Notes under the pieces: model-generated
The model's input: the letters and a program-made list of their open reading frames with translations, nothing else
Databases searched by the model: none
What the model was told of the DNA's origin: nothing
Part shown: positions 20,217 through 62,459 of the stretch, piece after piece
How positions within the stretch are numbered: position 1 is the stretch's first letter
How the letters are laid out: every line of letters begins with the position of its first letter
Assembly: GCF_900111275.1 (NCBI RefSeq)
Contig: NZ_FOGR01000010.1
Span: forward strand, 1-64,000
Direction: 5' to 3'
DNA from: Rhizobium sp. NFR03
GTDB taxonomy: Bacteria; Pseudomonadota; Alphaproteobacteria; Rhizobiales; Rhizobiaceae
DNA length: 64,000 nucleotides
Program-made: the position numbers and the translations under genes

Positions 20217-22789
20217 TCCGCCGCTGCGGCCTTCGGCAACGCGCCCGAGGGAATGCGGCAAACAACCTCTGTCCCCTCGCCTTCGCGTGTGACGATGCGG
20301 ACTTTGCCGTGGTGCAGCGTGATGAAGCTGTCCACGATCGACAGTCCAAGGCCGGCACCGCCGCGCTGGCCATGGCTTTCGAAGCGGTGGAAGACGCTTT
20401 CGAGCACATCTTTCGGAATGCCAGGGCCCTGATCGCTGACCGTGAAGACGAAATCGCTGCCTTCGCGGGCGCAGGACAAGCCGACGACGCTCCCTTCCGG
20501 CGCGAAATTGGCGGCATTGGTCAGCAGCTTGATGAAGATCTGCTTCAGCCGCTGATGATCGGCGACGAACGTGCCGAGCATATCCGGCGTGTCGATACGC
20601 AGGGTGACCGCACTTTCCTGCAGCCGATCAGCCATCTGCTGGGCCACTTCGTCCAGAAAATCCGTGAGATTGATCTCGCTAAGGTCGAGCTCGACGATAC
20701 CGGCATCGACGGTGGCGAGATCGAGGATGTCGTTGACGATGGTCAGCAGCAGCGACGAGGAGGTGGAGATGTGGTCGACATATTCCGCTTGGCGTGTCGA
20801 AAGTTCGCCGAAGGCCGGCGTCTTCAGGAGGTCGGCGAAGCCGATGATATTGGTGAGCGGCGAGCGCAACTCGTAGGAGACGTGCTGGACGAAGTCGTTC
20901 TTGAGCGAATCCGCCATCCGCAGCGCCTCGTTCTTCTCCGTCAGCGCGCGCTCGACGCGAACGCTGTCCGTCATGTCGACGAAGGTCAGCATGGTCTGCG
21001 CATTGGGTAGGGGTATGATGGCGAAGTCGAGGATGAGACCGGTGCGCAGCTCCAGCATGCCACGGCTGGACGGCCGCTCATCCTCGAAGCTGGTAATGGC
21101 ATGGGCGAACTGCTTCCAGCCATCCGGCTGATCGTAGGACACGGCGCAAGCCTGCTCGATGGCACGGATGTGCGTGCCCGGCGCAACTTCCGTCTCGGTA
21201 ACGCCCCAGAGCGCCCGAAAGGCCGGGTTCGAGAGCTTGATGCGCCCGTCCGGACCGAACACGGCAACACCTTCGGAGAGATGATCGATCGTTTCGCCCT
21301 GAACCTGAACCAGCGTGTTGTAGCGGGTCTCCAAGTCTACCCGCTCGGTGAGGTTCTCGAAGACCCAGGTTGCCCCGCCCTGTGGCCGGGCCGTGGCGAA
21401 GACGCGCAAGGTCTGCCCGTTCGGCAGATGCCACATGTCCGTCTGGGTTTCGATGGCTTGATAGACCGAGAGAGCCTGCTCCTTCCACTGCTTCCAGCTG
21501 AGCTGCTCGGGAAGACGACCGCTCTCGCGCAACTGGTCGAAGATCTCGCCATTGCCGGGACGGCGGGCGAGGAAGGCCGTGTCGAGGTTCCACAATGTCT
21601 GAAAGGCCTGATTGTAGAACTGAAGACGCTGCGAGCCGTCAAAGGTGGCAACGGCCGTCGCCAGATGGTCGAGCGTTTCGGCATGGCTCTTCAGCGTGCG
21701 CGAAAGCTCCTCGCGGACAGCCTCGATGGCGCTCACATCGAGCGCGATGCCGGCCGTGCCATAGGTCGTCTTCGCGTCGACGACGTCGAAGAAGGTGCGC
21801 TGGCCGCGCACCACGGTCGAGATCTTGTCGCGGAACGGAGAATCGTAGGTCGAAAGTGCCTTGGCTTTTTCACGTGAAACGGTTGCCAGAAGCTCTCGGC
21901 CTTCCTGAACGACCACATCCGTGCTTGGCGCCTCCACGGCGTCGCGATAGGCTTCGTTGACCCAGGTAATCTGCCCGTCACGACCGCGTTGCCAGACAGG
22001 CATGTCGACGGCATTCAGCAACGTCTGAAGGTTGGCGAGATCGCCACGCAGACGGTCGCGCTCCAGCGTCAGTTCCGCCAGTTCCTCACGCAGATTGTTG
22101 AGTGCGACGAAGCGCACGAAAGCCCGGCCGCCGGAGACGCGGCCCTGTGCTTCCAGAATTTCGTTGCGGCTGGTCTGAACGACGAGGTCGAAGCTTTCGG
22201 CATAGGTGCGCAGCCGGTCGATCGCGCGCTCGAGTTCGCTGGCCGACGTCGCCTTGATCCAGCGGCCGAAGGCCAGAAAATCCCTGTCGTCCTGCGGCGC
22301 CCCGGTTTCGGGCGGAAGCTGGCCAAGGAACTCCGGCTTTTCAGCCGGACCGTCCCAGACGACGATGCTGCGGTTCTTGTCCGAAATCAGTGCCTGGAAG
22401 CGCGAGATACTCTGGCGAGCATCTGCAAGCGCGGTCTTCAGGTCGCGATTGTCGGTCTCGACCGTGCTGCGCTGGCGAATGACCCAGACAGCGGAGATCA
22501 TGGCCGCGGCAATGGCGCCGGTCAGGAGCGAGAAGGTGATGATTTCGGAGGAGTGGAAGACGCTGGCAACGCCTTCGGCAGCCATGGCCTCGCCGGAGAG
22601 GAGCCCCAATGCGGAGCTTGCTGCCAGCCGACGAACGGCTCGGGACAAGCGATTTCGGCGTGGAACAGAGGCGGTATCGAGCACAGCGGATGTCGAGGAA
22701 GATGGGCGGACCTGTACCCCGGCGGAAACCACGCCGGTCTTTAACGGGTCAGCAGCCGCTCTTCCCGCGTACCAAAAAGCTTTCGTCAT
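20213..22789 (-). CDS. divL: DivL-like PAS pseudo-histidine kinase
   Basis: About 858 residues. An N-terminal hydrophobic stretch and a transmembrane segment (IITFSLLTGAIAAAMISAVW) are followed by several PAS repeats (for example NAVDMPVWQRGRDGQITWVN, TAVATFDGSQRLQFYNQAF, EGVAVFGPDGRIKLSNPAF), then a kinase core. The H-box reads HVSYELRSPL: Tyr639 replaces the phospho-accepting His, the hallmark of DivL, a regulator in the CckA-CtrA cell-cycle pathway. The ATPase boxes are intact (LLTNAANFAPEG, DQGPGIP, GAGLGLSI). Start set at the ATG at 22789; 22846 is an alternative. The stop overlaps tsaE (ATGA). Confidence 0.85.
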   Translation of the reverse strand: MTKAFWYAGRAAADPLKTGVVSAGVQVRPSSSTSAVLDTASVPRRNRLSRAVRRLAASSALGLLSGEAMAAEGVASVFHSSEIITFSLLTGAIAAAMISAVWVIRQRSTVETDNRDLKTALADARQSISRFQALISDKNRSIVVWDGPAEKPEFLGQLPPETGAPQDDRDFLAFGRWIKATSASELERAIDRLRTYAESFDLVVQTSRNEILEAQGRVSGGRAFVRFVALNNLREELAELTLERDRLRGDLANLQTLLNAVDMPVWQRGRDGQITWVNEAYRDAVEAPSTDVVVQEGRELLATVSREKAKALSTYDSPFRDKISTVVRGQRTFFDVVDAKTTYGTAGIALDVSAIEAVREELSRTLKSHAETLDHLATAVATFDGSQRLQFYNQAFQTLWNLDTAFLARRPGNGEIFDQLRESGRLPEQLSWKQWKEQALSVYQAIETQTDMWHLPNGQTLRVFATARPQGGATWVFENLTERVDLETRYNTLVQVQGETIDHLSEGVAVFGPDGRIKLSNPAFRALWGVTETEVAPGTHIRAIEQACAVSYDQPDGWKQFAHAITSFEDERPSSRGMLELRTGLILDFAIIPLPNAQTMLTFVDMTDSVRVERALTEKNEALRMADSLKNDFVQHVSYELRSPLTNIIGFADLLKTPAFGELSTRQAEYVDHISTSSSLLLTIVNDILDLATVDAGIVELDLSEINLTDFLDEVAQQMADRLQESAVTLRIDTPDMLGTFVADHQRLKQIFIKLLTNAANFAPEGSVVGLSCAREGSDFVFTVSDQGPGIPKDVLESVFHRFESHGQRGGAGLGLSIVDSFITLHHGKVRIVTREGEGTEVVCRIPSGALPKAAAAE
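21866..21881. other. parS-like ParB site inside divL
   Basis: TTTTTCACGTGAAACG matches the palindromic ParB site TGTTTCACGTGAAACA at 14 of 16 positions with the CACGTG core intact. It lies in coding sequence of divL, about 39 kb from the proposed origin. Confidence 0.6.
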
Positions 22790-28607: not shown

Positions 28608-28991
28608 CGTATTCCGCTCCATCATATCTTCGCGCCTTCTCTCTTCAGTTGCCGCTCACACAGGAAGCGGGCATCTTCGACAGAGGCCGGCCTGGACAGA
28701 CGGAACTCCAGAACGGAGGTCGGCCGGGGCCGGCGCGCGTTCATGAGTATAAAGGTGGAACAAATTGTGGCGAAGCGAAAACGTCATTGTGATGCACAAT
28801 CGGCGAAGAAGAGTATTGAAGTGACATCTTACGAGGTTTTCAATTCCGAATTTAAACCGATTGAACATTGAACAATTTCCTTTAAATCGATTAATATATT
28901 GAATTTATTGTATTTTTTCTGGCGCCGCCTTGCGTTTTGCGTAACTCCGGCTAATGTTGCGTCATCGATACAACGCAGGGGAGCAGCGCTC
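28608..28991. other. AT-rich divergent promoter region, chvI / pckA
   Basis: A 384-bp gap with no credible gene. Bases about 28860-28920 are the most AT-rich stretch near here and include a direct repeat TTGAACA-TTGAACA at about 28861-28874. It should hold promoters for both genes; no ChvI or CRP-like operator could be assigned by eye. Confidence 0.5.
28930..28957 (+). promoter_or_regulatory. Possible sigma-70 promoter of pckA
   Basis: TTGCGT and TAATGT hexamers with a 16-bp spacer, 34 bp upstream of the pckA start codon. Weak match; offered as a candidate only. Confidence 0.3.
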
Positions 28992-58134: not shown

Positions 58135-58994
58135 GCGTGGGCCGCCATGTCGGCGATGACGAGCGCGCGCAGCGTCTCGTCCACGCAAGGTTTCTCTCCG
58201 AACCATTTCTCGAAACCCGGCGCGGCCTGGTGCAGCAACATGCCGAGCCCATCGACGATGGTGCGGTCCTGCATTTTCGCCTGCGCCAGGATCGGCGTGA
58301 CGAGGGGGATATAGACGATATCGGTCACGACGGCTTTGCCGGGCATGCGGGTGAAATCGAAGTCGGGAACCGGCGTGCCGTCCATACCGAGCGATGTCGT
58401 GTTGATGAAGAGGGTCGCTTCGGCGAGAAGCTCCGGCAATGCCTCCATGCCGTGCGCGAGAACGCGTGTCCGCCCGAAGCGGTCGGAGAGTTCCTGTGCC
58501 CGGGGTAGCGTGCGGTTGACCACATGGATGGTGCGGACGCCGCGATCGCGGACGGCCTGAATGACTGCGCGGCTGGCACCCCCCGCACCCAGCACAATGG
58601 CAGTCTCGGCCGTGTTCCAGCCAGGCGCCCGCTCGTCGAGATTAGCAGCAAAACCGATTCCGTCGGTATTGGTCGCCTTCAGCCTGCCCTCCTCCAGCCA
58701 GACCGTGTTGGCGGCGCCGATTTCCCGGCTCAGCGCATCGGCCTCATCGACATGCGCAATCACCGTCTCCTTGTGCGGAATGGTGACGTTGCCGCCAATG
58801 AAACCGGACTGGCCGGATTTGAGAAGCGCGATGAAGTCCGGAAAAATGGCGGGCGTGACCTCTCGCGTTGTATAGCTGCCGTCCAGACCCAGTATTTTCA
58901 GCCAGTGCGCATGGATCAGCGGCGATCGCGAATGGCGAACCGGATAGCCGGCAACGAAGGCATGGTTAACAAATGTTTCACGTGAATCATGCAT
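58131..58994 (-). CDS. aroE: Shikimate dehydrogenase (NADP)
   Basis: 287-residue AroE reducing 3-dehydroshikimate. Substrate site [12 protein letters not shown] and [10 protein letters not shown] (catalytic Lys), NTDGIGF, then the nucleotide fold [12 protein letters not shown] and [11 protein letters not shown] chose the ATG at 58994 ([13 protein letters not shown]), which matches known rhizobial AroE starts; a GTG at 59003 is possible. The first codons overlap both maf and a parS-like site. Confidence 0.95.
58974..58989. other. parS site overlapping the aroE start and the maf stop
   Basis: TGTTTCACGTGAATCA matches the ParB consensus TGTTTCACGTGAAACA at 15 of 16 positions, the best such site in the window, 1.5 kb from the proposed oriC. 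On the minus strand it encodes part of the aroE residues DSRETF. Confidence 0.75.
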
Positions 58995-59613
58995 CGATGA
59001 CACTCAATCTTCTCAGTTCGCTCAGCAGCGGCAGGAGCGGCAGTCCAAGGATCGTGAAGTAATCGCCTTCGATCGCCTCGAACAGCTGGATCCCCTCTCC
59101 TTCGAGCTGGTAGGCACCAACGCTCGTCAGAGCCTTCTCTCCGACCCGTTCGAGATGCCGTGCGATGAAGGCATCACCGAGCGAGCGCATTTTCAGGCGC
59201 GCGGTGGAGACATGCGACCAAAGGGTCCTGCTATCCTGATGAAGTGCGATGGCGCTGTTGAGCCGATGGGTCCGGCCGGACAGGGCTCGCAGGTGCTCAT
59301 GCGCTTCTTCCATCGAGGCGGGCTTGTGAAACACGCGGTCCCCGAGCGACATGGTCTGATCCGAGCCGATAACGACCGGGCCGGTTCCTCCCGCCTCCCC
59401 TTGCGCCTCTCGCAAGGCAGCGGCGACCGCTTCGGCCTTCGCCTGGGCGAGAACCGTCGCCACCCGTTCCGGGGAAGCGCCTTCAGCCGCAAGTGGCGCT
59501 TCCAGCGCGCGCTCGTCGATCTCGGCCACCTGCCACGTGAAGGCGATGCCGGCATTCTGAAGCAGCATGCGCCGGAACGGGCTCGCGGAGGCGAGGACAA
59601 GCTGATGCGTCAT
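58987..59613 (-). CDS. maf: Maf-family nucleotide pyrophosphatase
   Basis: 208-residue Maf/YceF-like nucleoside triphosphate pyrophosphatase, a house-cleaning enzyme on modified nucleotides. N-terminal [26 protein letters not shown] and the C-terminal [25 protein letters not shown]. Overlaps aroE by 8 nt. Second gene from the origin on this side. Confidence 0.93.
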
Positions 59614-59639
59614 GGATGATCTCCCTATCGCGATGCGGA

Positions 59640-60461
59640 CTAGCGCAGGCGCGGCCTCAGGGCAACGATGGCCGCAGCCGTTTCCTCGATAGAGCGCCGC
59701 GTGACGTCGATGATCGGCCAGTTGTTCCGGGCGCAGAGCGCGCGCGCATATTTCAGTTCCTCGGCAATCGCTGCCCGATCTGTATACTCCTGCCCGTGAA
59801 ACCCGTGGGTCGTGCCGAGCACCCTGTGTTCGCGCACCTGGGACACACGATCGGCCGTCGCGATAAGACAGACCACCAACGGCTTCGTTGCCTCCAGCAA
59901 TCGCTCCGGCAGGGGCACGCCGGGCACGATGGGGATGTTGGCGGTGCGGATGCCGCGATTGGCAAGATAGATACTGGTCGGCGTTTTCGATGTGCGACTG
60001 ATGCCGATCAGCACGACATCGGCATCGTTGAAATCAGCCGGAAGCTGGCCGTCGTCATGATCCATCGTGAAGTTCAGCGCGTCGATGCGCGCAAAATAAT
60101 CTGCATCCATCACATGCTGGGCGCCGGACCGCCGACGTGAGGATGTGCCGAGATAGGTCTGGAAGAGGTCGATGATCGGCTCCAGAACGGATACGCAGGG
60201 GACGCCGATCTGCTGACACTGGGCGTTGATGATGTCGGACAGTTCGCGATCGACGATCGTGTAGAGAACGATGCCCGGTGCGGTGTCGATGGATTCCAGC
60301 ACCTGCATCAGTTGCTTGCGATTCCGGATCAGCGGATAGACGTGCTCCAGCGCATGATAAGTCTGGAACTGGGCAGCCGCGGCCCGGCCCGCCGCGATCA
60401 GTGTTTCCCCTGTCGAGTCGGAGATCAGATGCAGGTGGAAATAGTTTTTGTGATTGTCCAC
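59640..60461 (-). CDS. ppsR: Pyruvate,phosphate dikinase / PEP synthase regulatory protein (PpsR, DUF299)
   Basis: 273-residue bifunctional kinase/pyrophosphorylase of the DUF299 family, which phosphorylates and dephosphorylates PPDK or PEP synthase. N-terminal [12 protein letters not shown], and the P-loop-like [18 protein letters not shown]. It borders the origin-like gap, as its homologue does beside the Caulobacter origin. Confidence 0.93.
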
Positions 60462-60867
60462 GCTATTCTCGGCCGCCTGTTGATGATGGTGGATAAGGTG
60501 AGCCTAGGGGCGAGCCGGCCCGGCAGGCAAGGGGAAAACCTCCGACTTATTCACAAAGAGGCCCGTGCTCGCGATCTTTCCGGAGAACTTGTGAAAAAGA
60601 CTCGCGATGCGACGGATCGCCGCCGATCCTCAACAGGTCATCCACAGGCATGAGACATATCATGCGACAGCCAAGTTGCTCGAATAGCGGGATTTTTTCC
60701 AGTTGCTCCCTATGTTGTCCCTGAAGCGCGTCATCATCACCCTGTCACTTCGGGCGAAATGTTGTTCTGGGGACAAAGGGCCGACAACCTTTAATCCTTG
60801 ATAGTCACCGACTCTAAGAAATAGAAACCCTTAGATTCAAGATTCTATTTTAAGAGGGAAGCTGTGT
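60462..60867. other. Candidate chromosomal replication origin (oriC)
   Basis: 406-bp gene-free gap between ppsR and hemE, the place of the origin in Caulobacter and, as I recall, Sinorhizobium. DnaA-box-like 9-mers: TTATTCACA at 60547-60555 (plus), TTTTTCACA at 60590-60598 (minus), TCATCCACA at 60638-60646 (plus), TTATCCACC at 60488-60496 (minus). Bases about 60785-60855 are AT-rich, a possible unwinding element. No full CtrA motif (TTAA-N7-TTAA) is present, only isolated TTAA at 60791 and 60850. Confidence 0.78.
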
Positions 60868-61899
60868 GTGACGTCTGAAAACCGCAAGCTCGTCCGGGTT
60901 CTGAATGGGGAGACGCTGACGCCCCCGCCGATCTGGCTGATGCGTCAGGCCGGGAGATATCTGCCGGAATACCGTGAGACACGGGCAAGGGCCGGTAGCT
61001 TTCTCGATCTGTGCTACTCCCCCGACTTCGCTACGGAAGTGACGCTGCAGCCGATCCGGCGCTATGCATTCGACGCGGCAATCCTGTTTTCCGATATCCT
61101 CGTCATCCCTGATGCCCTGAAGCGGAATGTTCGCTTCGAGGAAGGCAGCGGACCGAAGCTCGACCCGATCGATGTCGATGGCATCAAGGCTCTCGATGGA
61201 AGGCCTGTGGCCGATCATCTGCGTCCCGTCATCGAAACGGTCGCACGACTGCGGCGGGAACTTCCGACGGAAACGGCCCTGCTCGGTTTCTGCGGCGCGC
61301 CATGGACGGTCGCGACCTACATGATCGCCGGGCACGGAACACCGGACCAGGCGCCGGCACGTCTGTTCGCCTATCGCAATCCGGAGGCCTTCGACGCGTT
61401 GCTGGCCATTCTCGCCGAACTCTCGGCAGACTATCTCGTCGCACAGCTCGATGCGGGTGCGGACGCGGTGCAGATCTTCGACTCCTGGGCAGGCGTTCTC
61501 GGGGAGGATACGTTCGAACGGTTTGCGGTTGCGCCCGTGCGCCGGATCATCGACAGCGTCCGGGCTCGCCGACCGGATGCAAAGATCATCGCTTTCGCCA
61601 AGGGAGCAGGTCTTCTCCTGAAGGAGTATCGCCAGAAGACGCAGGCTGATGCCATCGGTCTCGACTGGTCGGTTCCGCTATCATTCGCGGTCGATCTGCA
61701 AAAGGACGGCCCGGTTCAGGGAAATCTCGATCCGATGCGGGTCGTTGCGGGTGGAAGGGCTCTCGAAGACGGCATCGACCAGATCCTCGATCGTCTCGGA
61801 CAGGGCCCTCTGATCTTCAATCTGGGCCATGGCATTACACCGCAGGCCGATCCTGCCCATGTCGCCGATCTCGTGGCGCGCGTCAGGAAACCCGTGTGA
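60868..61899 (+). CDS. hemE: Uroporphyrinogen decarboxylase
   Basis: 343-residue HemE, converting uroporphyrinogen III to coproporphyrinogen III. Signatures: [17 protein letters not shown] and [15 protein letters not shown]. Begins with a GTG at 60868 after an AGAGGGA site. First gene right of the proposed oriC; its stop overlaps the hemJ GTG (GTGA). Confidence 0.96.
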
Positions 61900-62459
61900 G
61901 TACCCCGGAGCGCGATGACGGGGGTGCTCGGCAGACCGATGCCCCGGCAGGCCGTAAAACGCGTGTACGGGCCTTTGTGGCGCTTTCGGTGCTTGTCGCT
62001 GTTATCGTCGGTCTGATGGTCTGGCAGCCGGCCGATCTCATTCTCTGGATCAAGGCGCTGCACGTCGTGGCCGTCATCTCGTGGATGGCCGGCCTCCTCT
62101 ACATGCCGCGCCTGTTCATTTACCACACGGACGCCGAGCCGGGATCGCAGACGTCCGAAACCTTCAAGGTGATGGAACAGCGGCTCATGAAGGTGATCAT
62201 GCGTCCGGCCATGATGATCACCTGGGCGCTCGGACTCTATCTCGCCTGGAGCGTCTACGGGTTTCAGGGTGGCTGGCTTCACGCCAAGATTCTTGCCGTG
62301 ATCCTGCTGACGGGCGTTCATGTGCACTATGCCGATGCGGTCGGTCGCTTCTCACGCGATGGCGCTCGCCGCACCGCGCGCTACTGGCGGCTGATGAACG
62401 AGGTGCCGACCGTTCTGATGATCGTCATCGTCATTCTCGTTATCGTAAAACCATTTTAG
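61896..62459 (+). CDS. hemJ: Protoporphyrinogen oxidase HemJ
   Basis: 187-residue membrane protein of the HemJ family, the haem-b dependent protoporphyrinogen oxidase of many alphaproteobacteria. Four or five helices; conserved [27 protein letters not shown] (haem-ligand His), [32 protein letters not shown] and [25 protein letters not shown] start overlapping hemE, so the two haem enzymes are translated together. The first about 25 residues are polar and not conserved. Confidence 0.92.

Follow-up and report, generated by a model that had tools for sequence, protein, structure and literature searches.

Genomic setting

The window analysed here, 64,000 nucleotides of DNA, corresponds to bases 1–64000 of contig C22 (168,444 bp) in a genome of 5.40 Mb and 34 contigs. 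Near its right end, a gene-free gap of 406 bp (60462–60867), the candidate oriC, separates two divergently oriented genes: ppsR, a Kinase-PPPase (DUF299) gene on the minus strand (59640–60461; Pfam PF03618, E 1.2e-89), and hemE, the uroporphyrinogen decarboxylase gene on the plus strand (60868–61899; PF01208, URO-D, E 1e-108). The minus-strand genes run dnaQ, coaE, aroE, maf and ppsR up to the gap, the name dnaQ resting on an Exonuclease match and on position; on the plus strand, hemE is followed by a UPF0093 gene, which we take to be hemJ, and by rho. The dnaA gene is located on a separate contig (C20); besides it, a partial match to the C-terminal domain of DnaA was seen at 687558–687695 of contig C17, in a 193-aa frame. 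The ppsR–hemE order is present in 24 of the 29 class-wide loci that were fetched, out of 49 other genomes having a hemE match. In the counts below, "family" denotes the Rhizobiaceae in the wide sense, as judged from the best HemE relatives, which among named records include Rhizobium, Shinella, Neorhizobium, Ochrobactrum, Mesorhizobium and Aminobacter.

Alphaproteobacterial origins of the hemE type are known (PMC1914354), as are GANTC sites in Caulobacter-type origins (PMC3973325). Cori of Caulobacter crescentus and the hemE-COG1806 origins have the same boundary genes, DnaA boxes, an AT-rich stretch and GANTC (PMC1914354, PMC8959179, PMC3973325).

DnaA boxes and the AT-rich stretch

The two exact TTWTNCACA sites claimed by the initial annotation are indeed there, TTATTCACA on the plus strand (60547–60555) and TTTTTCACA on the minus strand (60590–60598), and they are the only exact sites of the 64-kb window. 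The near matches, also confirmed, comprise TTATCCACC (60488–60496, minus strand) and TCATCCACA (60638–60646, plus strand), each with one mismatch, and TCATCAACA (60478–60486, minus strand) with two; in an alignment with relatives, the CTGTTGA segment of TCATCAACA is mostly kept and the ATCCACA segment of TCATCCACA is kept in most rows. A weak site, TTGTCCCCA (60768–60776, minus strand, two mismatches), may be due to chance. Since 17 of 100 shuffles give at least two exact sites per 64 kb, the number of exact boxes is unremarkable by itself. Their arrangement is distinctive: among the 81 exact sites of the genome the gap pair, 43 bp apart, is the closest, and the 168-kb contig has only one other, at +38.9 kb. 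When up to two mismatches from TTATCCACA are allowed, the gap holds six sites against 0.58 expected, and the densest 406-bp window for such sites within the 64 kb starts at 60441 and contains seven, the next best containing four.

The AT-rich stretch recorded before hemE (60785–60855) was likewise recovered, with 67.6% AT against 37.6% in the window, and is the probable duplex-opening region. Equally AT-rich 71-bp windows amount to 0.12%, so that the stretch is unusual, yet not the richest (maximum 80% at 28848).

Chromosomal position of the probable origin

Sites resembling parS, defined by at most two mismatches, gather around the gap. All six of the 5.4-Mb genome are on contig C22, where they span −38.8 to +32.7 kb relative to the gap, against a single match for the reversed control; the window includes TGTTTCACGTGAATCA, with one mismatch (58974–58989), 1.7 kb from the gap middle, and a site with two mismatches at 21866–21881. 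In genome G006 all six such sites are within −2 to +77 kb of hemE, in G028, which represents another genus of the family, five of five are within about 26 kb, and in the congener G002 six of seven are near hemE, the remaining weak site being on another contig.

Over 200 kb of G028, cumulative GC skew traces a clean V whose minimum falls 1.2 kb from the gap, with a parS 0.3 kb away, and in twenty 20-kb samples of G002 the octamer GGGNAGGG switches from the minus to the plus strand at 0.64–0.82 Mb, an interval that contains hemE (0.68 Mb), and back at 2.3–2.5 Mb. The initial annotation had named a skew minimum elsewhere as evidence against its proposal; G028 has its minimum close to the gap, but in the genus of the window (C22, G002 and G006) the check does not come out cleanly. 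The local cumulative minimum in the C22 and G002 stretches is about 60 kb left of the gap. In C22 the skew, uninformative at contig scale, rises mainly beyond 90 kb, its minimum being near the left end of the stretch, and the octamer GGGCAGGG changes strand near 97–99 kb, about 37 kb right of the gap. Two-boundary fits of GC skew to coarse samples miss hemE, placing the origin at 1.37–1.56 Mb in G002 and at 0.32–0.54 Mb in G006; the best octamer fit in G006 (0.11–0.32 Mb) misses it too, the hemE interval (3.96–4.17 Mb) ranking fourth, and finer samples around hemE in this genome are of mixed octamer strand. Strand-balanced third-position skew in 20-kb samples is noisy. In the genus of the window, skew places the origin at best "around here".

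A true origin elsewhere on the contig or chromosome, at the octamer flip about +37 kb away or at a repABC locus, would suit the flip at 97–99 kb, the late rise of the skew from a minimum near the left end and the coarse fits that do not pick hemE, but is highly improbable given that two of the three exact TTWTNCACA sites of the contig are in the gap, that all six parS-like sites surround it and that the G028 minimum falls so close to it. With the DnaA-box cluster, the parS setting, the G028 skew, the G002 octamer and the gene order all in support, the gap is very probably the chromosomal oriC of the hemE type, as originally proposed.

CtrA and GANTC sites

The absence of a complete CtrA motif, which the initial annotation considered notable, is real but not notable, being usual among relatives. 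TTAA-N7-TTAA is absent from the gap, as are its one-mismatch forms, of which the window has three at other places; nor does any of 23 family gaps contain a complete motif, in contrast to the five CtrA sites of Cori (PMC1914354), and a full motif within 450 bp of hemE was found in 2 of 31 genera. A 2010 paper already states that CtrA of Brucella abortus does not bind to the origin (PMC2877005), so that the interest of a CtrA-free origin is not new. Among Rhizobiales a hemE-type origin that lacks CtrA sites is ordinary, and it raises the question of how these bacteria restrict replication to once per cycle.

GANTC, the target of CcrM, is some five times rarer in the window than in shuffles (81 sites against a mean of 388), yet the gap has four sites against 0.51 expected from window density (P 0.002), and 23 family gaps have 10.5 per kb against 2.0 in their flanks, an about fivefold enrichment. 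One site is beside the DnaA box at 60590 (60599–60603), one is part of the block described below, and two are in the AT-rich stretch before hemE (60834–60838 and 60841–60845). Three further sites were observed inside the 5' end of ppsR (60292, 60320 and 60415). The gap and the start of ppsR make up the densest 554-bp GANTC stretch of C22, with seven sites against five in the next, for a width chosen post hoc; with 406-bp windows the contig maximum, five sites, falls at 68.5 kb, and the gap has four. That cluster, outside the window, is near the parS-like sites at 65.4 and 67.4 kb.

A RAMA-domain protein, which we take as the marker of CcrM, is encoded on contig C20 of the genome, in 60 of 60 relatives and, among 14 control genomes, in one (Caulobacter). 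The genome thus has both GANTC sites and the RAMA-domain protein, which by sequence qualifies the former as candidate CcrM sites. Family genomes lacking CcrM, sought by this domain, were not encountered in either of two sets (60/60 and 46/46, 45 of the 46 above the cut-off).

A conserved block upstream of hemE

When the gap was aligned with those of 12 relatives, the strongest conservation fell not on the boxes singled out initially but on a 38-bp block before hemE, TTTAATCCTTGATAGTCACCGACTCTAAGAAATAGAAA (60790–60827, plus strand), which ends 40 bp 5' of the hemE start. It can be described as a candidate unwinding module composed of DnaA boxes, a GANTC site and DnaA-trios: two degenerate boxes with four mismatches each, TAATCCTTG (60792–60800, plus strand) and ATAGTCACC (60801–60809, plus strand), are followed by GACTC, a CcrM site at the putative box/trio junction (60810–60814), and by the four triplets AAG AAA TAG AAA (60816–60827, plus strand). 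Distant genera display the same order of two DnaA-box-like nonamers end to end, GA[C/G]TC, one base and triplets with a middle A. Their boxes can be closer to TTATCCACA, the best of each module having no mismatch in L061, one in L066 and two in L017: the second box is TTATCCACA itself in L061 and CTATCCACC in L017–L019, and the triplets of L017 are AAG AAT CAT CAA. In L066 the nonamers are TAATCCACA, at the place of box 1, and CTACTCACA, GACTA replaces GANTC, and AAT AAT AAG follows.

The arrangement resembles the basal unwinding system (BUS) of Pelliciari et al., which consists of a box, a spacer of at most 16 bp and DnaA-trios of the form (.A.){3,} (PMC8287927). Shared with the BUS of Bacillus subtilis and Helicobacter pylori are the box, the short spacer, the NAN repeats on one strand and the tandem boxes (PMC8287927); in the window, four NAN triplets, all on one strand, follow the end of the box at a distance of 6 bp. 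It differs in that a GANTC site makes up the spacer in most of the family, whereas PMC8287927 as consulted mentions no GANTC, and in that the boxes of the window, both with four mismatches, are more degenerate than the strict rule of at most two mismatches from TTATCCACA allows. With three mismatches allowed, 14 of 31 family loci conform to BUS (shuffles: mean 2.0, maximum 5). According to the same paper, DnaA-trios were not found in 15% of the bacterial genomes examined (PMC8287927). We found no publication that brings DnaA-trios and GANTC together, in a search that leaves out the bulk of subscription journals, the S. meliloti oriC paper among them; the accessible parts of papers on GANTC and DnaA boxes (PMC8959179, PMC2217572, PMC6090056) place no GANTC at the junction.

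One imperfect match to the IHF site overlaps the block. A search of Rfam with 59600–62000 returned nothing above gathering score, with one chance match (E 0.98); the Caulobacter non-coding RNA CcnA was considered as an identity for the block and was rejected for want of an Rfam match. A CcnA homologue was not clearly detected in S. meliloti, according to PMC8959179.

Conservation in the family and the order

Conservation was measured with the anchor AC[AC]GA[CG]TC, which leaves the triplets unspecified, in 31 family genera represented by one locus each. The anchor has a single match on the plus strand, 58–114 bp before hemE, in 29 of the genera, and none on the minus strand. At offsets 7, 10, 13 and 16 from it, A is present in all 29 anchored loci, as it is at offset 9, whereas offset 15 is A in 86% and offset 6 in 76% of these rows, which share ancestry and hence are not independent trials. 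The combination of GANTC, one base and four NAN triplets occurs in 29 of the 31 loci on the plus strand and in none on the minus strand (shuffles: mean 0.26, maximum 2). Within GANTC itself, the G, A, T and C are invariant in the 29 loci, 18 of which have C and 11 G at the centre; a central T was seen once, in L269, which is not one of the 29.

A 20-letter pattern derived from the block, ACMGASTCWWAKAANNANNA, matches 331 of the 393 family genomes, in 85 of 99 genera, the 331 being a genome-wide count and the place before hemE having been verified in individually examined loci. It is in single copy in every matching genome except G159, which has two, and the reversed control gives 8 matches; with its one match in most family genomes, it may aid origin prediction. 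All 15 loci from named records chosen as family-like by name and identity (L171–L184 and L186) have the block. Among the 62 family genomes without the pattern, 30 were searched and 27 had hemE; 20 of the latter retain GANTC at the spot and have a small change elsewhere. Genome G218 has two hemE copies among the loci examined, L276 and L291, and the GANTC site is found at L291. In six family loci (L066, L272, L275, L281, L289 and L290) GANTC has been lost while box and triplets are kept and the RAMA domain is present in the genome, which indicates that the junction GANTC is dispensable in some lineages.

Beyond the family, a box with at most three mismatches, a spacer and at least four triplets were found on the plus strand in 10 of 21 unselected loci from other families of the order, and on the minus strand in 2 (shuffles: mean 2.5, maximum 6, with 0 of 200 reaching 10), leaving 11 of the 21 in which no box and trio module was detected. 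This repeat replaces an earlier count of 16 of 29, inflated by eight named loci picked by eye, and omits L072 (150 bp only), G038 (no hemE match) and G045. GANTC followed by one base and four NAN triplets was found in 1 of the 21 (L073), although GANTC near a box also occurs in some other members of the order (Bradyrhizobium type, L187 and L205). Because the box and trio are found in 10 of these loci and the GANTC form in one, the former seem older, and the junction GANTC seems to be an addition, nearly fixed in the family. When the class-wide loci (29) were searched with the Rhizobiaceae core, no convincing matches emerged, and by eye three Hyphomonadaceae loci (L237, L248 and L250) differ from the family in having no GANTC at the box/trio junction.

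Genomes with relocated hemE

Is the block simply the promoter of hemE? The hexamers TTGATA (at 60798) and TAGAAA (at 60822), spaced by 18 bp, could serve as −35 and −10 elements, and the block ends 40 bp before the gene; GANTC could then be read by GcrA and CcrM to time hemE, given that promoter binding by GcrA depends on GANTC methylation (PMC3667746) and that replication in Caulobacter is affected by hemE transcription (PMC8959179). A simple scan of 60440–60900 with the sigma-70 consensus, weak evidence in itself, revealed no promoter-like site. Also relevant are eight genomes, mostly Bradyrhizobium, in which hemE has moved away (L191, L193–L196, L200, L202 and L210) and the ppsR gap now faces hemJ. 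Box and GACTC are kept in the ppsR gap of seven of them (L251, L254, L256–L258, L260 and L262), where AGACTC occurs together with two halves, one of them ATTCAC, ATCCAC or AATCAC, the exception being L252, without the GACTC block; within 400 bp upstream of the relocated hemE the block was found in none of the eight. Upstream of relocated hemE in L191, one match to GANTC with four NAN triplets does not fit the anchored block. The eight were drawn from 13 genomes, four being excluded because hemE is still by ppsR or the contig ends (L253, L255, L259 and L261) and the thirteenth, L263 (G125), although hemE seems to have moved there too.

As box and GACTC stay in the ppsR gap when hemE moves, the block is not simply a hemE promoter; hemJ, to be sure, could use it. 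In 10 of the 21 order relatives, moreover, the sequence changes and yet box and three-base phase stay, which also speaks against a promoter. All in all, we regard the promoter reading as unlikely. The triplet phase of the Bradyrhizobium-type gaps is not clean, which counts against a uniform reading of the triplets as trios.

The region upstream of ppsR in L263 reads ATCTCCACA GGCATC CACTACTACAACAAC, a box and five triplets without GANTC.

Proposed mechanism

We consider it probable, overall, that the gap is a DnaA-dependent oriC in which the block is the unwinding element and carries a CcrM site at its junction, a reading that draws on the position and parS setting of the gap, the conservation and triplet phase of the block, the fixed ends and variable centre of its GANTC and the retention of box and GACTC in the ppsR gap. 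The use of the block by DnaA as an unwinding element, predicted from these sequence features, is itself likely. DnaA would load on the boxes that occupy the left two thirds of the gap and on the degenerate pair at 60792–60809; its filament would extend rightwards over AAG AAA TAG AAA of one strand and open the AT-rich DNA towards hemE. Opening would start at the box/triplet junction, that is, at the GACTC site, and because this is a CcrM site its two adenines would go from fully methylated to hemimethylated when the origin fires, and would remain so until CcrM returns late in the cycle. N6-methyladenine weakens base pairing. Full methylation of the junction could therefore favour opening and hemimethylation disfavour it, with a delay of the next round until CcrM is back.

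CcrM is indeed reported to appear late in the cell cycle (PMC11514494), and a 2008 model of the Caulobacter cycle assumed the requirement for a fully methylated origin (PMC2217572). The enzyme opens a bubble in DNA, pulling the strands apart at GANTC (PMC6787082), and it may act physically at the junction too. That methylation makes the junction easier or harder to open, or alters the loading of DnaA, is nevertheless a tentative part of the proposal, held low chiefly because of a result from Agrobacterium tumefaciens that bears most directly on the family: depletion or excess of CcrM hardly altered ori1 there, but altered ori2 (PMC11514494). In Caulobacter, CcrM is reported not to be required for the control of initiation (PMC3973325).

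The chances are about even for an alternative in which the gap is again oriC, with the block as unwinding element, but GANTC is only spacer sequence and methylation has no role in initiation. The nearly unchanged ori1 under CcrM depletion fits this, as do the GC-rich region among published BUS spacers (PMC8287927), the central C or G of GANTC in all 29 loci and the six family loci that keep box, triplets and RAMA protein without the site. What speaks against such a spacer is that the outer G, A, T and C are fixed in 29 of 29 loci while the centre varies between genera, which fits recognition of GANTC better than a merely GC-rich sequence, and that the pentamer is avoided in the window and enriched in family gaps, about fivefold each.

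Relation to known systems

The origin of E. coli, oriC, is controlled through adenine methylation by Dam and through SeqA. The role of Dam there is also covered in PMC3973325. The E. coli origin likewise has adenine-methylation sites that become hemimethylated after firing, but Dam is another enzyme with other timing than CcrM, and the gap has one site at a fixed spot inside a predicted unwinding element. GANTC at a rhizobial origin is found as well in repABC/ori2 of A. tumefaciens, where single GANTC changes alter replication (PMC11514494); repABC origins depend on RepC, whereas the gap is of the DnaA-dependent hemE type.

A methylation site that most of the family keeps exactly where opening is predicted would offer a five-base target for experiment and could tie the copying of the chromosome to the methylation clock. 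CcrM is reported to be essential in other alphaproteobacteria, though not in Caulobacter (PMC6090056), and A. tumefaciens with little CcrM lives in minimal medium (PMC11514494); the junction GANTC is a candidate in cis for the essentiality of CcrM outside Caulobacter.

Variants in related lineages

Four genomes of one genus within the family, of 1.0–1.5 Mb, differ in the pattern ACMGASTCWWAKAANNANNA, which is present only in the largest (G199); the RAMA domain remains in the smaller three (G012, G264 and G313), and the hemE locus of G012 (L062) has no block before hemE. A hemE match is absent in the family genomes G182, G167 and G235, the first two of which are reduced; the origin of these two, if of the hemE type, must have other boundary genes. 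Locus L077 (G049), from a different family of the order, has a similar block of GAGTC and A-rich triplets on the opposite strand some 50 bp upstream of hemE, as if the module were inverted. Finally, in L207, L220, L073 and L086, hemE is preceded by runs of CAA or AAC triplets that lie close to a DnaA-box-like site or follow it directly, L207 being an example, which suggests that the DnaA-trio takes a CAA form in some members of the class.
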